Assembly: GCA_016193285.1 (NCBI GenBank)
Contig: JACPSL010000024.1
Coordinates: 1 to 49,414, forward strand
Origin: Candidatus Melainabacteria bacterium
GTDB lineage: Bacteria; Cyanobacteriota; Vampirovibrionia; 2-02-FULL-35-15
Direction: 5' to 3'
Length of the DNA stretch: 49,414 bases
Positions 11,919 to 34,008 of the stretch are shown here, in pieces; position 1 is the first letter of the stretch; every line of letters begins with the position of its first letter. Made by a program: the position numbers and the translations under genes. The notes beneath the pieces are model-generated. The model was not told the origin of the DNA and searched no databases. It saw nothing but the letters and a program-made list of their open reading frames with translations.

Positions 11919-11971
11919 TAGATATATTTTATATTTCTTTTAACAAATATAGCTTGGACATTTTACCATGA

Positions 11972-12076
11972 TTAATGATATGGAAACATCTCTTTTAAAT
12001 CAGCTGGTACTAAAATAGGTCCAGATAAATACCTGTTTTGATTAAAATGAAGCACTATGCCAAGTTCTAGGTCTAA
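11972..12076 (-). pseudogene. orphan 3' end of a PDZ-protein gene
   Basis: Read on minus, this stretch encodes LDLEL, a short gap, then QNRYLSGPILVPADLKEMFPYH and a TAA stop. The complete PDZ protein at 13875-14405 ends LNLEL...QNRYLSGPITVPVNPQDFFPYH. The last 14 codons after SGP align without gaps, and 27 bp (12014-12040) are identical to 13917-13943. The homology starts exactly where the restriction endonuclease gene stops (12073-12075), and there is no 5' part. It is therefore the detached 3' end of a PDZ gene copy, separated from the intact copy by the R-M genes. Confidence 0.8.
12014..12040. repeat. 27-bp direct repeat, R-M cassette left copy
   Basis: Identical over 27 bp to 13917-13943, inside the orphan PDZ 3' end. 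The two copies flank the restriction-modification genes in direct orientation. A second short match, ATTTTACCATG, occurs just outside each stop codon (11960-11970 and 13813-13823). Confidence 0.85.
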
Positions 12077-13655: not shown

Positions 13656-13874
13656 ATTGAATAGTATTTGCAAATTATCTAAGGGTTGATTTTATAGTTT
13701 TGTGTATCAAACATCAATAGGCTAGTAAATTAAGTTAGAAAATGAATAATTTTGACAGTACTTAAAATTCAAAAACCCTAGATCAATATATTTTTTCATT
13801 ATCGGCTTGAATATTTTACCATGCATGAAATTGCTTCACTGTGCTCGCAATAGCAGTTAAAAGTTTTTGGTTGT

Positions 13875-14405
13875 TTAATGGTATGGAAAAAAATCTTGAG
13901 GATTAACCGGGACAGTAATAGGTCCAGATAAATACCTGTTTTGTATTTCAGGAGAAAAGTTTGCTAAATCTTCCCTTATTAATTCTAAGTTGAGCATTGA
14001 AGTACCCCTTGTAATAAAAACTTTTACTTTTGTACCTGGTTCCCCTGAAAGTAGCTGGTATACACTGTCAGAATTTAAGTTCTCAGTTCTAATTCCATCA
14101 ATTGAAAATATTAAATCTCTTGGCCTTAAACCGGCCCTACTAGCTGGTGAATTAGCATAAACCTCCTCAATATAGGAAGGAAAACCTACTTGATGTATAA
14201 ATCGTAGTCCTATTACCCCAATGCCAGTTAATGGTTTTACTTTTGCAACATCTTCTCGGATATTACCTTTTAATTTAATGCTTTGTTCTTTTTCTGAATT
14301 GTTATGAAAAAGAGGCGCTTTAAGTTCTTGTTCATCTATAGCAAAAGCCTGAGTATAGCTAAAAAGTACTAGTAAAAATAAAATAAAATAAAATATTTTC
14401 TTCAT
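13875..14405 (-). CDS. exported PDZ-domain protein
   Basis: A 176-residue protein starting MKKIFYFILFLLVLFSYTQA, a clear signal peptide probably cut after AFA. One PDZ domain (about 65-150) is visible in PASRAGLRPRDLIFSIDGIRTENL and GEPGTKVKVFITRG. No protease catalytic domain is present, so it is an adaptor or a regulator of an envelope process. The open frame starts at a TTG (14429), but the ATG at 14405 gives the better signal peptide. Its 3' end is duplicated beyond the R-M genes at 11972-12076. The target is unknown. Confidence 0.82.
   Translation of the reverse strand: MKKIFYFILFLLVLFSYTQAFAIDEQELKAPLFHNNSEKEQSIKLKGNIREDVAKVKPLTGIGVIGLRFIHQVGFPSYIEEVYANSPASRAGLRPRDLIFSIDGIRTENLNSDSVYQLLSGEPGTKVKVFITRGTSMLNLELIREDLANFSPEIQNRYLSGPITVPVNPQDFFPYH
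13917..13943. repeat. 27-bp direct repeat, R-M cassette right copy
   Basis: Lies within the last codons of the intact PDZ gene and is identical to 12014-12040. The distance between the copies is 1903 bp and covers the methyltransferase and endonuclease genes. Confidence 0.85.
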
Positions 14406-25277: not shown

Positions 25278-25437
25278 TTATTTCTTCTCCTCAATAAACT
25301 TATACCCTATACACATTGATATTATACTGACCTTTCAAAACCATGTAACCGTAGGTTACATTGATCAAAATTAATAAACATTTAATAATTAATGGATCTT
25401 ATAATTGTCATATTCCAGCAGTTTTAATTTGGTATAT

Positions 25438-26361
25438 ATGAAAAAATCAGAATTAAAAAAAACAATTATGGGTGTAGATATTGGCGGGACAAAAATAGCC
25501 TCGGCATTAGTTTCTAGTGGAAAGTTAGTAACTCCTGTTTATAGTGTAAGCACACCTCACGGGATAAAAATATTAAACGTAATTAGTAATTTTTATAAAA
25601 AGTTTTCTAAAAAATATCTTTTAGCTGGAATTGGAATTTCAACAGCCGGCATGGTAAGTGATAATGGAAGAATAGTTGGTTCAACTGGAAATATTCCTGG
25701 CTGGCAAGGTACAAAAGTAAAAGAATTTCTTCAACAAAAATACAGACTACCTGTAGTTGTTGAAAATGATGCAAATGCAGCCGCTTATGCAGAATATCAA
25801 ATTGGTTCAGCACGTGGTGCAAATCCTCTTCTTATGATTACTTTAGGAACTGGAGTTGGTGGAGGAGTTGTAGTAAATGGAAGATTAGTAAGAGGAGCTC
25901 ATTTTGCAGGTGGCGAGATTGGGCACATAAAACTAAGTTATACAAAACAAAGACTTTGCACATGTGGAAGATATGATTGTTTAGAAGCATATGCATCTGG
26001 AAATGGACTCCTTGCACTTATAAAACATTATTTTCCAGATAGTTACAAAAAAATTAGTACAAGAGATTTATTTAAATTAGCCACAGCAAAAAACAAGAAT
26101 AGTATTTTAGCAATTAGGATAATCGAAGACTGGCATTTTTATATTTCTCTTGGAATATGTAATTTATTTCAGGTATTTGATCCTGAAAAAATAATTTTGT
26201 CCGGAGGATTGTCTAGTAAAATAAATCTTAAATATCTAACTAAAGAAATTAGCAAACAAGTTTTGCCAGCTCTTGTAAAATCTATTCATGTTGAAAAAAG
26301 TATATTAGGCAATGATGCAGGCTTATTAGGTGCTGCATTACTTGCAAGTCAGAGCTTGTGA
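25438..26361 (+). CDS. ROK-family sugar kinase (glucokinase-like)
   Basis: A 307-residue ROK kinase. The phosphate loop MGVDIGGTKIASALV is followed by ENDANAAAYAEYQIG (catalytic Asp), GTGVGGGVVVNG, the substrate Glu/His region GGEIGHIKL and the zinc motif CTCGRYDCLEAYASG. These fit a glucokinase-type member; the actual sugar is unproven. The open frame begins at a TTG (25405), but the ATG at 25438 gives the normal family start. Its final 52 bp are repeated downstream at 27722-27773. Confidence 0.92.
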   Translation: MKKSELKKTIMGVDIGGTKIASALVSSGKLVTPVYSVSTPHGIKILNVISNFYKKFSKKYLLAGIGISTAGMVSDNGRIVGSTGNIPGWQGTKVKEFLQQKYRLPVVVENDANAAAYAEYQIGSARGANPLLMITLGTGVGGGVVVNGRLVRGAHFAGGEIGHIKLSYTKQRLCTCGRYDCLEAYASGNGLLALIKHYFPDSYKKISTRDLFKLATAKNKNSILAIRIIEDWHFYISLGICNLFQVFDPEKIILSGGLSSKINLKYLTKEISKQVLPALVKSIHVEKSILGNDAGLLGAALLASQSL

Positions 26362-26367
26362 GAGTTA
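26310..26367. repeat. 58-bp direct repeat, left copy (ROK 3' end)
   Basis: Covers the last 17 ROK codons, the TGA and 6 bp beyond. It matches 27722-27779 at 57 of 58 positions; the only difference is C at 26355 against T at 27767. The copies are 1412 bp apart and flank the ATPase gene. Confidence 0.95.
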
Positions 26368-26398
26368 ATGCTTTTAGTGGCATCTTTATATTAAGAAT

Positions 26399-26439
26399 GG
26401 CTAATTTAGACAGATATCTAAACTAGCCATGGCTTTTTT
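26399..26439 (+). terminator. terminator-like hairpin behind the ROK gene
   Basis: GGCTAATTTAGA (26399-26410) pairs with TCTAAACTAGCC (26417-26428), with one mismatch and a 6-nt loop. ATGGC and a run of six T follow. It lies inside the ATPase cassette, between the left repeat and the ATPase start, and would insulate the cassette from ROK transcription. Confidence 0.7.
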
Positions 26440-26460
26440 AAGGTATACTATAAATTAGCC

Positions 26461-27672
26461 ATGATAGAAAGATTCGTTAAGAATATCTTTACTTCAAAAG
26501 ATTTCAGCAAACAAATGAGATTTCTTGCTGGGCCTAGGCGTTCTGGTAAGACATTTATAGCTAAGCATTTCTTGAATACAGTTAATTGTGAGAATTTATA
26601 CTATAACTGGGATATAAAAAACATAAGACAAAAATATATTAAAGATCAAGATTTTTATCTTAATGATATTAATAGAGGCAAAAAAAATATTTGGATTTGC
26701 TTTGATGAGATTCATAAAGTTAAAAAATGGAAAAACATTTTAAAAGAGCATTTTGATAAAAATGAAGACAAGAATATAAAAACAATTGTTACTGGAAGTG
26801 CAAGGCTAGATCTTTTTAGAAAAGCTGGTGATAGTTTAGCAGGCAGATATTTTCTGTTTCATTTGTATCCATTAATACTTTCTGAGGTATCAAAGAGGAA
26901 AAGTATAGTTAATGACTTAAACTTAACAGCAGAAGATTTTATTAAAAAATGGCTGGAGCGAGATTCAAATCAAGATGAATTTGAAACACTGTTTAAATTT
27001 AGTGGGTTTCCAGAGCCTTTGATTAGTGGAAAAGAAACATTTCATAATAAATGGAAAGATGACTATATAGAAAAACTTATATATGAAGATTTAAGGGAAA
27101 TTTCACAAATAAAAGATTTAGATAAAATAGCTGAACTGATTTTAACTCTACCAAGTAAAGTAGGAAGTCTTTTATCTATAAATTCTTTAAAAGAGGATTT
27201 GGAAATAAGTTTTGAAACAGTAAAGAACCATTTAAGAGCACTTGAACTTATTTATGTTTTGTTTTTTATTAAGCCATACACAAAAAAAATATCAAGAACA
27301 ATAAAGAAAGAAAGTAAAGTTTATTTTTTTGACTGGACTAGGGTTAATAGCCCTGGTGTAAGGTTTGAAAATTATGTTGCATGTGAATTAAAAGCTTTAG
27401 TCACACTATGGTCTGATGCAGGATATGGGAAAGCAGATATTTTTTTTGTAAGAACAAAAGATGGGAAAGAAAGTGACTTTCTTATTATAAAAGACAATAA
27501 ACCTTGGATTCTTTTCGAAGTAAAGTTGTCCTCACAGGAAATAGAAAACCACCATTTTAATCTTGTTAAAAATCTTGGGAACATACCAATTGTGCAAATA
27601 GTATTAGAAAAAAACCTGCTTAAAAAGATAAGTGATAGGGCATTTATAGTTTCAGCAGATAGATTTTTTTAA
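26461..27672 (+). CDS. AAA ATPase with DUF4143-type nuclease-like domain
   Basis: A 403-residue protein of the AAA_14/DUF4143 (COG1373) type. Walker A is GPRRSGKT (24-31), Walker B is IWICFDEIHKVKKW and sensor-like IVTGSAR follows. A helix-turn-helix-like stretch sits mid-protein (SLKEDLEISFETVKNHLRALE). The C-terminus has Asp339 and Glu353-Val-Lys355 (ESDFLII...LFEVKLS), a PD-(D/E)XK nuclease-like arrangement. The gene lies alone between two copies of the ROK 3' end, with no integrase. Such ATPases are often scattered singly in genomes and their function is not established. The charged Lys-rich composition also suggests transfer. Confidence 0.88.
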   Translation: MIERFVKNIFTSKDFSKQMRFLAGPRRSGKTFIAKHFLNTVNCENLYYNWDIKNIRQKYIKDQDFYLNDINRGKKNIWICFDEIHKVKKWKNILKEHFDKNEDKNIKTIVTGSARLDLFRKAGDSLAGRYFLFHLYPLILSEVSKRKSIVNDLNLTAEDFIKKWLERDSNQDEFETLFKFSGFPEPLISGKETFHNKWKDDYIEKLIYEDLREISQIKDLDKIAELILTLPSKVGSLLSINSLKEDLEISFETVKNHLRALELIYVLFFIKPYTKKISRTIKKESKVYFFDWTRVNSPGVRFENYVACELKALVTLWSDAGYGKADIFFVRTKDGKESDFLIIKDNKPWILFEVKLSSQEIENHHFNLVKNLGNIPIVQIVLEKNLLKKISDRAFIVSADRFF

Positions 27673-27721
27673 ATTTAAAACATAATGTCAGCAAGAATGA
27701 GGTCTTAGAAATCCTTTTCAA

Positions 27722-27779
27722 CAATGATGCAGGCTTATTAGGTGCTGCATTACTTGCAAGTCAGAGTTTGTGAGAGTTA
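27722..27779. repeat. 58-bp direct repeat, right copy
   Basis: A second copy of the ROK gene 3' end (codons for NDAGLLGAALLASQSL, stop and 6 bp), without any preceding ROK sequence. It has one mismatch to 26310-26367. It starts 50 bp after the ATPase stop and marks the right edge of a cassette of about 1.4 kb. Confidence 0.95.
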
Positions 27780-27792
27780 TATAATTTCAATC

Positions 27793-28014
27793 TTACTCTT
27801 CACTAAGACTTTCTAGTTGACCTAACCCTTTTCTGGTTCTTGTTAAATAAGCAAGATATTTTTCAGTACCTAAAGTTTGTAATGCCCTTTGTTCATCTTG
27901 GTCAAACACAGACTTTGTATCACCCCCTGCTTCGAGGGTTTTTATTTGAACATCTAACCTTTGGGCCAATCTTTGTAAATGTGGTGGTACTTTTTCTGAA
28001 ATTCTTAGTGTCAT
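27793..28014 (-). CDS. small hydrophilic protein of unknown function
   Basis: A 73-residue soluble protein, MTLRISEKVPPHLQRLAQRL onward, predicted mostly helical, with a Leu-rich heptad-like end (RKGLGQLESLSEE). No signal peptide or family is recognised. It starts at an ATG on minus, 14 bp beyond the right copy of the ROK repeat. It may be the gene that originally followed the ROK gene before the cassette arrived. Composition is more balanced (Gln, Arg) than typical shadow frames, which supports a real gene. Confidence 0.55.
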   Translation of the reverse strand: MTLRISEKVPPHLQRLAQRLDVQIKTLEAGGDTKSVFDQDEQRALQTLGTEKYLAYLTRTRKGLGQLESLSEE

Positions 28015-28159
28015 TTGTTAACTTAACTTAATTACATTACCTACTTTTACTGTATTGCAATTAAGTGCCTTAACTAACTTTAGCTCTATGAAAAAAAATT
28101 AATCACATTAATACTCGTTTTTGTATATGATTTTTTACAAACTTGGGTATATCAAATTC

Positions 28160-28624
28160 ATGAATCGGGTAGAACCTGCATATCAAAATAATAAGAGCTG
28201 GGCCATTGCAAATAAGAAAAAAGGATTTAATGCAACTGCTTGTGCTCTTGGTTCTACTGCTATTAGTTGTGTAAAAACTTTTACTGAAAAAGATTCTTCT
28301 TTAAATTGGATTCTTGATATTGGACAAAAAACACTAGACGCACTTAGAAATCTTGAACAATATTTACTCTATAAAAGAGATGATGATGATTTAGATTTTG
28401 ATAAAAGAAATAGACCAATTGCAGGAAACGTAGATCAGCTTGCATGTGCTTATGAAACAAAAGTAAATCCAATTGCAGTACCTCTTGCTTCAGTTATTGG
28501 TGGAAAAACAGGAGAAGCATATAACACTATTTCAAATTGGCTTAGTTCAATGTGGTGGAGAGTAAGACCGGCTTGCGGAGAATTGCAGTGTGGTATATTT
28601 ACATTAAGAAGAACAGAAACTTAG
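28160..28624 (+). CDS. hypothetical protein
   Basis: A 154-residue protein (MNRVEPAYQNNKSWAIANKKKG onward) with a central acidic DDDDLDFD cluster and a semi-hydrophobic ISNWLSSMWWRVRPAC stretch near the end. No conserved domain is recognised. An in-frame ATG at 28127 could extend it by 11 residues; neither start has a clear ribosome-binding site. It sits between the small minus-strand gene and the nucleotidyltransferase pair. It may be lineage-specific or truncated. Confidence 0.5.
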   Translation: MNRVEPAYQNNKSWAIANKKKGFNATACALGSTAISCVKTFTEKDSSLNWILDIGQKTLDALRNLEQYLLYKRDDDDLDFDKRNRPIAGNVDQLACAYETKVNPIAVPLASVIGGKTGEAYNTISNWLSSMWWRVRPACGELQCGIFTLRRTET

Positions 28625-28635
28625 AAACTGAATAT

Positions 28636-28860
28636 ATGATTAGAAACTATAAAAAATATAAGGAGTTTGAAGATTCATTAATAGCAAATGAGAAAGCAGA
28701 TTTTGAGAAAAATCAAAAATTATATGAATGGATGTATAATGAAGCAGTTCAGTTAAAGGTAATCCCTCTAAAAAATCCTCTTGAAGGAATAGATACAGAT
28801 ATAAGAATTGCAAAACTTTTAAATAGTGTTTCAAAACCTCCTAAAAAAGCTAGCTACTGA
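28636..28860 (+). CDS. small partner of nucleotidyltransferase
   Basis: A 74-residue protein, MIRNYKKYKEFEDSLIANEK start, with the segment EWMYNEAVQLKVIPLKNPLEGIDTDIRIAKLLNSV. I recall similar short proteins (MYxEAxxLGxxPxxxPLEGIxxDIRIAxxLN) encoded directly ahead of nucleotidyltransferase genes. It overlaps the next gene by 35 bp, so the two are co-translated. A toxin-antitoxin-like or paired regulatory role is possible but not shown by the sequence. Confidence 0.62.
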   Translation: MIRNYKKYKEFEDSLIANEKADFEKNQKLYEWMYNEAVQLKVIPLKNPLEGIDTDIRIAKLLNSVSKPPKKASY

Positions 28861-29380
28861 GTTTGAAAAATCTAATATCCCTTACATGGTTATTGGTGGA
28901 CAAGCAGTTCTCCTGTATGGGGAGCCTAGATTTACAAAAGACATAGACATTACACTTGGAGTGAGTGTTGAAAAATTAGATAGCATAATTAAAATTGCAA
29001 GCAGCCTGGAATTAAAAATACTTCCTGATAATCCTAGAAAATTTGTAGAAGAGCTAATGGTCTTGCCAGTAATAGATGGAACAAGTGGAATTAGAATTGA
29101 TTTGATTTTTTCATTCTCACCATATGAACAAGAAGCAATTAAAAGAGCAAATAAAATTAATATATCAGGCACGTCTGTCAACTTTGCGTCAATAGAAGAT
29201 CTAATTATTCACAAAGTTATAGCAGGAAGAGAAAGAGATATTGAAGATATAAGTAATATAATTTTGAAAAATTCAAATTTTGATAAGAATTATATTTCAA
29301 GATGGTTAAGAGAGTTTGACCTTTCCTTAAATGAATCATTTACAGAAAAGTTTACAAGCATGACGAAAAAGCATTGTTAA
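28826..29380 (+). CDS. nucleotidyltransferase-fold protein
   Basis: A 184-residue protein with a polymerase-beta-like nucleotidyltransferase fold. It has Gly24-Gly25 in VIGGQAVLLYG, Asp39-x-Asp41 in TKDIDITLG and a third acid, Asp92, in RIDLIFSF. The tail IEDLIIHKVIAGRERDIEDI is typical of the DUF6036/AbiEii-like group. The catalytic triad is intact. It starts at GTG 28826 within the end of its small partner. Possibly part of an MNT/AbiE-type toxin-antitoxin or defence pair; the target is unknown. Confidence 0.8.
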   Translation: MFQNLLKKLATEFEKSNIPYMVIGGQAVLLYGEPRFTKDIDITLGVSVEKLDSIIKIASSLELKILPDNPRKFVEELMVLPVIDGTSGIRIDLIFSFSPYEQEAIKRANKINISGTSVNFASIEDLIIHKVIAGRERDIEDISNIILKNSNFDKNYISRWLREFDLSLNESFTEKFTSMTKKHC

Positions 29381-29416
29381 CTAATTTACACTTATCATGT
29401 AAAATTAATACTGCCC

Positions 29417-30247
29417 ATGCCTACTACAATTCATACAATTAAAGAATATAAAAAACAAAATAAAAAAATAGTAGCTTTAACTGCTTATGACTACAGTACT
29501 GCAAAGGCTTTAGATAAAGCAGGAGTAGATATTATTCTTGTTGGAGATAGCTTGGCTCAAGTAGCTCTTGGTCACAAAAAGACACTTTCAGTAACAATGG
29601 ATGAAATGTTACATCATGCTAAAGCTGTAACTAGAGGTGTTGAAAATGCACTTGTTGTTGTTGACATGCCTTTTTTAAGTTATCAAGTTAGTAGGAAAGA
29701 AGCAGTTATAAACGCAGGAAGATGTCTGCAAGTTGGAGCTAATGCTGTTAAGTTAGAAGGTGCATCAAAAGGAATTTTACAAACCATAGAAAAAATGATT
29801 TCCATTGGTATACCAGTTTTAGGACATATAGGATTTACTCCACAATCAATTAATACTTTAGGTGGAAATAAAGTTCAAGGGAAAAATGCTGACTCTGCAA
29901 AAGATCTTTTAAAGCAAGCTAAAGATTTACAAGATATTGGTTGTTTTGCAATTGTGTTGGAATTAATGTCATCTGAAACTACAGAAATAATTACAGAAGC
30001 TTTAAGTATTCCTACAATAGGCATTGGAGCTGGTTCAAGATGTGATGGTCAAATTTTAGTAACAGATGATTTAATTGGTAAGTATACAGATTTTAAACCA
30101 AGCTTTGTAAGACGATATGCTGAAGTTGGAAAAGAAATTGAAAACGCAGTTAAAAATTTTGTTTATGATGTTCAACATGGGAAATATCCTGGTATAAATG
30201 AAACTTTCTTTATGAATGAATATGAAAGTGAAAAGTTAAAAAGATAG
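29417..30247 (+). CDS. panB: ketopantoate hydroxymethyltransferase
   Basis: Makes ketopantoate from ketoisovalerate and methylene-THF, the first step of pantothenate and CoA synthesis. The 276-residue barrel shows KIVALTAYDYSTAKALDKAGVDIILVGDSLAQVALGH, VVVDMPFLSY, NAVKLEGA, PVLGHIGFTPQS and IPTIGIGAGSRCDGQ. The final 16 bp overlap the open frame of the CDP-alcohol phosphatidyltransferase, whose start is unclear. Confidence 0.97.
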   Translation: MPTTIHTIKEYKKQNKKIVALTAYDYSTAKALDKAGVDIILVGDSLAQVALGHKKTLSVTMDEMLHHAKAVTRGVENALVVVDMPFLSYQVSRKEAVINAGRCLQVGANAVKLEGASKGILQTIEKMISIGIPVLGHIGFTPQSINTLGGNKVQGKNADSAKDLLKQAKDLQDIGCFAIVLELMSSETTEIITEALSIPTIGIGAGSRCDGQILVTDDLIGKYTDFKPSFVRRYAEVGKEIENAVKNFVYDVQHGKYPGINETFFMNEYESEKLKR

Positions 30248-33411: not shown

Positions 33412-34008
33412 ATGCCTACATACCCTAGAGATAGCATAAATAAAATAAGATATGAGGTTACCTCGCCCCTACATGGCGATGATTTTGACTTACTTTTTGA
33501 AAACAGTAACAGAACTAGAAATGAAGATTATATAAAGGTATATCATTTTTATTATTTTTTAGGAGTATGTTTATTTGTAGCAATATTGATATTTATTTTT
33601 CAAACATTTAAAAATAAGGAAGCAAGTTCATCGCTAGTTAACTCTTTTGTTCTTGAAAATAATAATGGTGATATTGAGGCTGACAAATTAGATGAAGAAG
33701 TAGGCAGAATAAAGATGGAAGATATTGAACAGTGGGTACAAGATGACAGTCAGCAATTAGCTCTCAGCAATCAGCAATCAGCAGTCAGCCCTTCAATCTC
33801 AAAACCTCGAAACCTTGTAACCTCAAAACCTCGAAACCTTGTAACCTCAAAACCTCGAAACCTTGTAACCTCAAAACCTCGAAACCTTGTAACCTCAAAA
33901 CCTCGAAACCTTGTAACCTCAAAACCTCAAATGCCTAAATTAGTAGACATTCCTACTGCACCAAAAGCTGATGAGATAATGCTTAGACCAGTGGTAGGAA
34001 TAGAGTAG
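33412..34008 (+). CDS. single-span membrane protein with tandem repeats
   Basis: A 198-residue protein with a cytosolic N-terminus of about 45 residues, one membrane helix (FYYFLGVCLFVAILIFIF) and a long hydrophilic C-terminal part. Residues 130-169 are five copies of SKPRNLVT, encoded by a 24-bp DNA repeat. Just before them, SNQQSAVS derives from a TCAGCAA heptad array. These are DNA-level repeat families that invaded the gene; the rest lacks recognisable homology. Function unknown. Confidence 0.65.
   Translation: MPTYPRDSINKIRYEVTSPLHGDDFDLLFENSNRTRNEDYIKVYHFYYFLGVCLFVAILIFIFQTFKNKEASSSLVNSFVLENNNGDIEADKLDEEVGRIKMEDIEQWVQDDSQQLALSNQQSAVSPSISKPRNLVTSKPRNLVTSKPRNLVTSKPRNLVTSKPRNLVTSKPQMPKLVDIPTAPKADEIMLRPVVGIE
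33748..33789. repeat. TCAGCAA heptad array
   Basis: Tandem 7-bp units of TCAGCAA with variants (TCAGCAG, CTCAGCAA), in the coding sequence of the single-span membrane protein and immediately before the 24-bp repeat array. Confidence 0.8.
33799..33929. repeat. 24-bp tandem array, five copies plus a partial
   Basis: Five perfect 24-bp units followed by 11 bp of a sixth. Each unit consists of three 8-mers beginning AACCT (AACCTCGA, AACCTTGT, AACCTCAA). It stays in frame and encodes SKPRNLVT repeats. Copy number should vary easily by slippage in steps of 8 residues. Confidence 0.95.

Follow-up and report, generated by a model that had tools for sequence, protein, structure and literature searches.

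The locus

Within the window, by which we mean the whole 49,414-nucleotide stretch of DNA analysed, a gene encoding an AAA_14 and DUF4143 protein (hereafter the ATPase) lies alone between two copies of the 3' end of a ROK-family gene. The following features were assigned.

25405-26361, plus strand: ROK-family gene, the host gene with the duplicated 3' end (open reading frame; Pfam ROK 2.7e-62; nine family orthologues end at the same place)
26310-26367, plus strand: left direct repeat, the target duplication, being the original ROK 3' end including the stop codon (repeat comparison)
26368-26460, plus strand: cassette leader with putative promoter region, palindrome and repeated half-sites (leaders of other copies are similar in length and design)
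26397-26430, no strand: inverted repeat or hairpin, arms at about 26398-26410 and 26417-26429 (fold z -3.2; direct reading)
26451-26460: third half-site, TAAATTAGCC, abutting the start codon (direct reading of the sequence)
26461-27672, plus strand: AAA_14 and DUF4143 protein of 403 aa, PADLOC PDC-S01 family (open reading frame, Pfam, PADLOC), comprising an AAA+ ATPase, a middle region and a C-terminal PD-(D/E)XK-like nuclease motif (D339, E353, K355)
27673-27721, plus strand: 49-bp cassette tail downstream of the stop codon (tails of most other copies measure 0-25 bp)
27722-27779, plus strand: right direct repeat, an orphan copy of the ROK 3' end (repeat comparison)

The two repeats are identical at 57 of 58 positions with a spacing of 1412, as reported in the initial annotation, and the one differing position is silent in the ROK reading frame, AGC and AGT both encoding Ser. 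The left copy comprises the final 52 bp of ROK, with its TGA stop codon at 26359-26361, plus 6 bp, and no ROK sequence was found upstream of the right copy, confirming that the left copy is the true gene end. When up to three mismatches were allowed, the 34-bp core of the repeat was present at just these two sites in the whole 1.81-Mb genome (G000), so that the repeat is not the general multi-copy sequence that had been raised as a counter-explanation. Between the repeats there is one gene together with the hairpin, and Pfam analysis identified AAA_14 (2.5e-26) and DUF4143 (2.9e-23), both above cut-off, with no transposase, integrase or second gene in the unit, in agreement with the annotation. 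The G+C content of the cassette is 28.2% compared with 31.1% for the window. The annotated hairpin is present but its description as terminator-like needs correction: it is upstream of the ATPase gene in the leader, where other copies also have palindromes, and is for this reason more likely to be an operator or element end than a terminator.

Empty sites in related genomes

Nine family relatives have a ROK orthologue with 65-84% identity that ends at the same residue region, and in all nine it is followed by other DNA, with neither an ATPase gene nor a second repeat copy. These loci therefore represent empty sites with a single repeat copy, which the initial annotation had proposed seeking; its alternative, that the ATPase would be found here in sister genomes with no repeat, is contradicted by relatives in which this site lacks the ATPase. 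In most of the nine, panB (at 29417 in the window) comes after ROK, 100-136 bp downstream in two of them, while in the window the two genes are approximately 3 kb apart with accessory genes between, the ATPase cassette being the first. These data show that the 58 bp flanking the cassette are duplicated target DNA and that the ROK target gene was left intact. The ROK-panB stretch is a variable spot within an otherwise conserved gene order, and from the cassette to panB (27790-29400) the accessory genes include a DUF6036/AbiEii-like nucleotidyltransferase (28826-29380) and a 73-aa antisense open reading frame.

Direct repeats around other members of the family

There are 22 DUF4143 matches in G000 and up to approximately 45 copies per genome in relatives. 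A sample of 135 full-length ATPase relatives with flanks was compared with 362 other open reading frames taken from these loci and similar in length, each gene being scored by the best ungapped direct repeat spanning it, with a cut-off of at least 18. This cut-off was reached by 24 of the 135 ATPase relatives but by only 5 of the 362 controls (Fisher 1.7e-10) and, following strict cleaning in which dispersed, tandem, complex and orthologous cases were removed, by 15/126 and 2/359, respectively (7e-8). The nine high-scoring ATPase entries excluded were dispersed or tandem (L025, L158, L015, L071, L155, L034), complex (L039, L030) or an orthologue (L109). Mismatched flank pairs scored at least 18 in 4 of 1604 cases, one being an orthologous locus, and the window pair scores 55; repeats of this quality almost never arise by chance. 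The cleaned repeats are 22-76 bp in length with a different sequence at each locus, and brackets with such locus-specific sequence surround at least 14 relatives besides the window copy, although a recognisable repeat is present in just 12-18% of ATPase copies.

When empty sites were rebuilt by joining flanks, the repeats mostly spanned one end of a neighbour that had remained intact. This was the 3' end for the window, L074, L099, L028, L038, L129, L154, L029 and L130, and the 5' end for L026, so that relatives do have copies of their own local gene ends, as the initial annotation had suggested checking. Together with the nine single-copy ROK orthologues, these locus-specific brackets support its reading of insertion into a gene end with restoration of the stop codon. 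The preference for gene ends can be explained by selection against gene-breaking insertions, with no target preference.

Unit ends delimited by sequence similarity

Seven copies from the window's own subfamily were found in Desulfobacterota assemblies, with 86-96% DNA identity to each other and approximately 49% protein identity to the window. In 21 of 21 pairs plus-strand similarity begins 81-126 bp before the ATG and stops 2-43 bp past the stop codon (nearly all 2-15), and the flanks of the seven copies are unrelated. Their leaders have a common palindrome, TTAAATTTGCCATGGCAAATTTAA in most copies. On Rhizobiaceae plasmids similarity again extends over the gene plus approximately 75 bp upstream with three iterons of the type TTTAAATTGGACGG, with copies adjoining traH, repA, a chloride channel, pyc, a GlxA regulator and other genes; several have the common 3' end TTATGGAACT approximately 25 bp past the stop. 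Empty sites are provided by plasmids in which the same tra region lacks the ATPase and, relative to these, approximately 210 bp of target has been replaced in a Sinorhizobium meliloti insertion. No convincing repeat was found around any of about 20 plasmid copies searched, and these are apparently either old or were inserted without duplication. In Emticicia an ATPase gene is located between araD and araA.

No terminal inverted repeats were evident by eye in the copies inspected, no terminal sequence was found to be shared across families or across ATPase subfamilies, and an attempted phylum-wide replication using one subfamily yielded almost no additional copies. Two candidate observations were discarded. 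The sequence CATCAAGGCGAA, considered as a terminus at the 5' junction of L266 and L272, is also present at the empty site L275 and may be carried-along target sequence or microhomology, and an apparent element remnant beside pyc in L274, considered as evidence of excision, adjoins an ISNCY transposase.

Sister species and other bracketed families

Two genomes of the same genus, G028 and G033, approximately 93% identical where aligned, were used for comparison of filled and empty sites. The ATPase gene at L109:10160-11386 is missing from L130, and the junction shares at most approximately 3-6 bp. Two larger differences between these genomes each involve an ATPase plus a second gene (SMEK_N in one case and AAA-ATPase_like/PDDEXK_9 in the other). 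These two-gene insertions in G028 relative to G033 are at L119:5035-6830 and L120:5865-8726, respectively. Some ATPase copies are common to both species and have kept the same decayed repeat (L102, L129).

In an unbiased scan of 1254 G033 genes, representing most of the genome and with dispersed, tandem and CRISPR repeats set aside, few genes were bracketed, and these included three ATPase genes and one ORF6N gene. ORF6N matches PDC-S05 and encodes no nuclease. Three of approximately 15 ORF6N loci are bracketed single-gene cassettes, with repeats of 61 bp (L192:4123-4692 in G033), 23 bp (L223) and 31 bp (L234), two of them at the 3' end of the neighbour gene, and two AAA-ATPase_like genes have brackets of 26-31 bp. 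Because nuclease-less ORF6N genes have the same bracket, the encoded ATPase may not be the agent of insertion, and entry by a shared route, or by one supplied by the host, competes seriously with self-movement as an explanation.

The encoded protein

An alignment of 19 copies shows conservation of the Walker A, Walker B, GS and AGR motifs, as well as of D339, E353 and K355 of the PD-(D/E)XK site, with E353 present in at least 90% of the copies. The window protein matched PADLOC PDC-S01 at 3.8e-49, and every copy tested matches this family. The AlphaFold model is of low confidence (mean pLDDT 56), with the C-terminal part alone reasonable; the fold search returned initiator-type AAA+ matches that were weak and not significant, and a PDB profile search gave generic AAA+ matches plus one archaeal ATPase, 2fna. 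PDC-S01 is reported as an unvalidated candidate single-gene phage defence that ranks fourth in frequency among prokaryotic defence systems, with a patchy distribution, several cross-domain transfers and counts of 29,494 in bacteria and 9,986 in archaea (PMC12988326).

Mechanism and alternatives

Single-gene mobility, target duplication, intact neighbours and a defined unit are established by these data, which also show that the unit travels between unrelated sites without any adjoining gene; that the gene is mobile as a unit is very probable. On balance we favour the ATPase gene being a one-gene mobile cassette inserted through offset nicks and fill-in, with the encoded nuclease, we infer, as the likeliest agent. 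Such a cassette would open with a leader of about 50-130 bp carrying the promoter and either a palindrome or iterons, and a short tail would follow the gene. The target would be opened by two opposite-strand nicks, usually 20-80 bp apart, the cassette would be joined between them, and gap filling would turn the overhang into a direct repeat of variable length. The nicks would most likely be made by the encoded AAA+ protein through its PD-(D/E)XK nuclease domain, and this protein may recognise the palindrome or iterons at the 5' end of its own cassette. Loss of gene-breaking insertions would leave survivors at gene ends. As one insertion has a repeat of at most approximately 6 bp and another deleted approximately 210 bp of target, no single cut geometry can explain all insertions, and the insertion reading of the initial annotation needs tempering in that a long repeat is not always produced.

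The common unit ends are the strongest support for the encoded nuclease as agent and the ORF6N brackets the strongest reason for doubt. Self-mobilisation by the encoded protein, suggested by its conserved motifs, has in our view close to an even chance of being correct. The fuller proposal, in which PDC-S01 proteins serve as mobility enzymes for a new class of minimal element, with an AAA+/PD-(D/E)XK protein inserting its own gene at offset nicks with no recombinase or fixed ends, is tentative and falls slightly short of even.

The bracketing of ORF6N (PDC-S05) and AAA-ATPase_like genes would also be produced if the cassette were passive cargo, a chromosomal equivalent of a moron, taken up as a short fragment when general repair closes a staggered break, with fill-in generating the repeats. 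The ATPase would then not cut the target, and the self-contained gene would be kept since it is useful, in phage defence or addiction. The range of insertion outcomes (repeat, near-blunt, deletion), the carriage of two genes in some insertions and the cataloguing of the family as a defence candidate are in keeping with such capture. However, it predicts random fragment ends, yet independent copies have nearly the same unit ends, some Rhizobiaceae copies have a common 3' terminal sequence, and ordinary genes are almost never bracketed; we regard it as rather unlikely. Mobilisation in trans, by common machinery elsewhere in the genome recognising leaders or tails of several single-gene families, would explain why, within one genome group, two unrelated families (PDC-S01 and PDC-S05) both combine palindromes in the leader with short tails and long brackets, but no terminal sequence is common across families or ATPase subfamilies and no candidate machinery was found, making this improbable. 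An island of the tyrosine-integrase type was rejected, there being no integrase and a different repeat each time. The window's genome assembly is fragmented, but an assembly artefact or chance repeat is extremely improbable given the same bracket in independent genomes, decayed repeats common to orthologous sister-species copies (L102, L129) and complete plasmids carrying the same unit in differing contexts.

Relation to known systems

Phage morons are autonomous single-gene inserts between phage genes. The ATPase cassettes resemble them in having one gene and an apparent promoter of its own, predicted from sequence, between intact genes, but differ in occurring on chromosomes and plasmids across phyla, many per genome, and in combining conserved unit ends with target duplications that are long and variable; the window flanks are ROK and, further on, panB in conserved chromosomal order rather than phage DNA. 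Free-standing homing endonuclease genes stand alone, encode a nuclease motif and spread with no other function. The cassette protein likewise has conserved putative nuclease active-site residues, whereas the cassette is at many unrelated sites and not one cognate site, its protein has an AAA+ domain and its direct repeats are 22-77 bp. Insertion sequences are similarly small, with one gene and direct repeats at the target, but the cassette has no known transposase or recombinase, its repeat length is variable, and near-blunt and deletion cases occur. Tyrosine-integrase islands also restore the target gene through a duplicated gene end, but the cassette has no integrase and no common att sequence. 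In Tn7, a possible parallel, nuclease (TnsA, PD-(D/E)XK) and AAA+ (TnsC) activities serve mobility, but in the cassette both domains are fused in one protein and there is no TnsB-type transposase or ends. No known element class matches all of the features tested. In the available portion of a report on paired-nick tandem duplications, offset breaks and fill-in produce short direct repeats of variable length, as proposed here, although in eukaryotic cells and with no cassette (PMC8355091).

PDC-S01 (COG1373, AAA_14 + DUF4143) is the same protein family as the window ATPase, and the accessible part of its source treats it as a defence candidate only, with no mention there of cassette boundaries, target duplications or gene mobility (PMC12988326). 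The literature searched, most subscription papers lying outside it, yielded no account of genes annotated as PDC-S01, COG1373 or DUF4143 moving as units; one paper lists COG1373 in a table of horizontal gene transfer, with no route of movement given there. If the gene itself is mobile, its own spread could explain the abundance and patchiness of PDC-S01, and counts of defence systems would need rereading; if the protein is in addition a novel mobility enzyme, one of the most abundant 'defence' families would be a selfish single-gene element. A passive, moron-like cassette would be a variant rather than a new element class. The bracket signature provides a handle, since repeats flag recent insertions, identify the target and supply empty sites, and its occurrence on ORF6N (PDC-S05) genes as well suggests that a common, undescribed route of genome entry serves several single-gene families. 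The Agrobacterium and Rhizobium plasmids offer cultured hosts for tests.

Other repeats

Several further repeats were observed. A perfect palindrome, GTAACCGTAGGTTAC, at 25345-25359 upstream of ROK has a chance expectation of zero and closely resembles the leader palindromes of the ORF6N cassettes L223 and L234. Elsewhere in the window there is a tandem array with a 24-bp period (AACCTCAAAACCTCGAAACCTTGT) at 33771-33955 and a 72-bp direct repeat, 78% identical, with copies 1.9 kb apart at 11969-12040 and 13872-13943. Among the controls that scored, a non-cassette, weakly ROK-like gene of 403 aa at L145:5711-6922 (G033) is flanked by two exact copies of the 24-bp sequence TTAGATTTCGATCTCTTTAACTAA. 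At L147:1897-2949 and at other G033 and G028 loci there is a dispersed repeat family containing AAACGCAGAAATTGGAGTT, one 95-bp form having approximately 40 copies in the examined part of G033.
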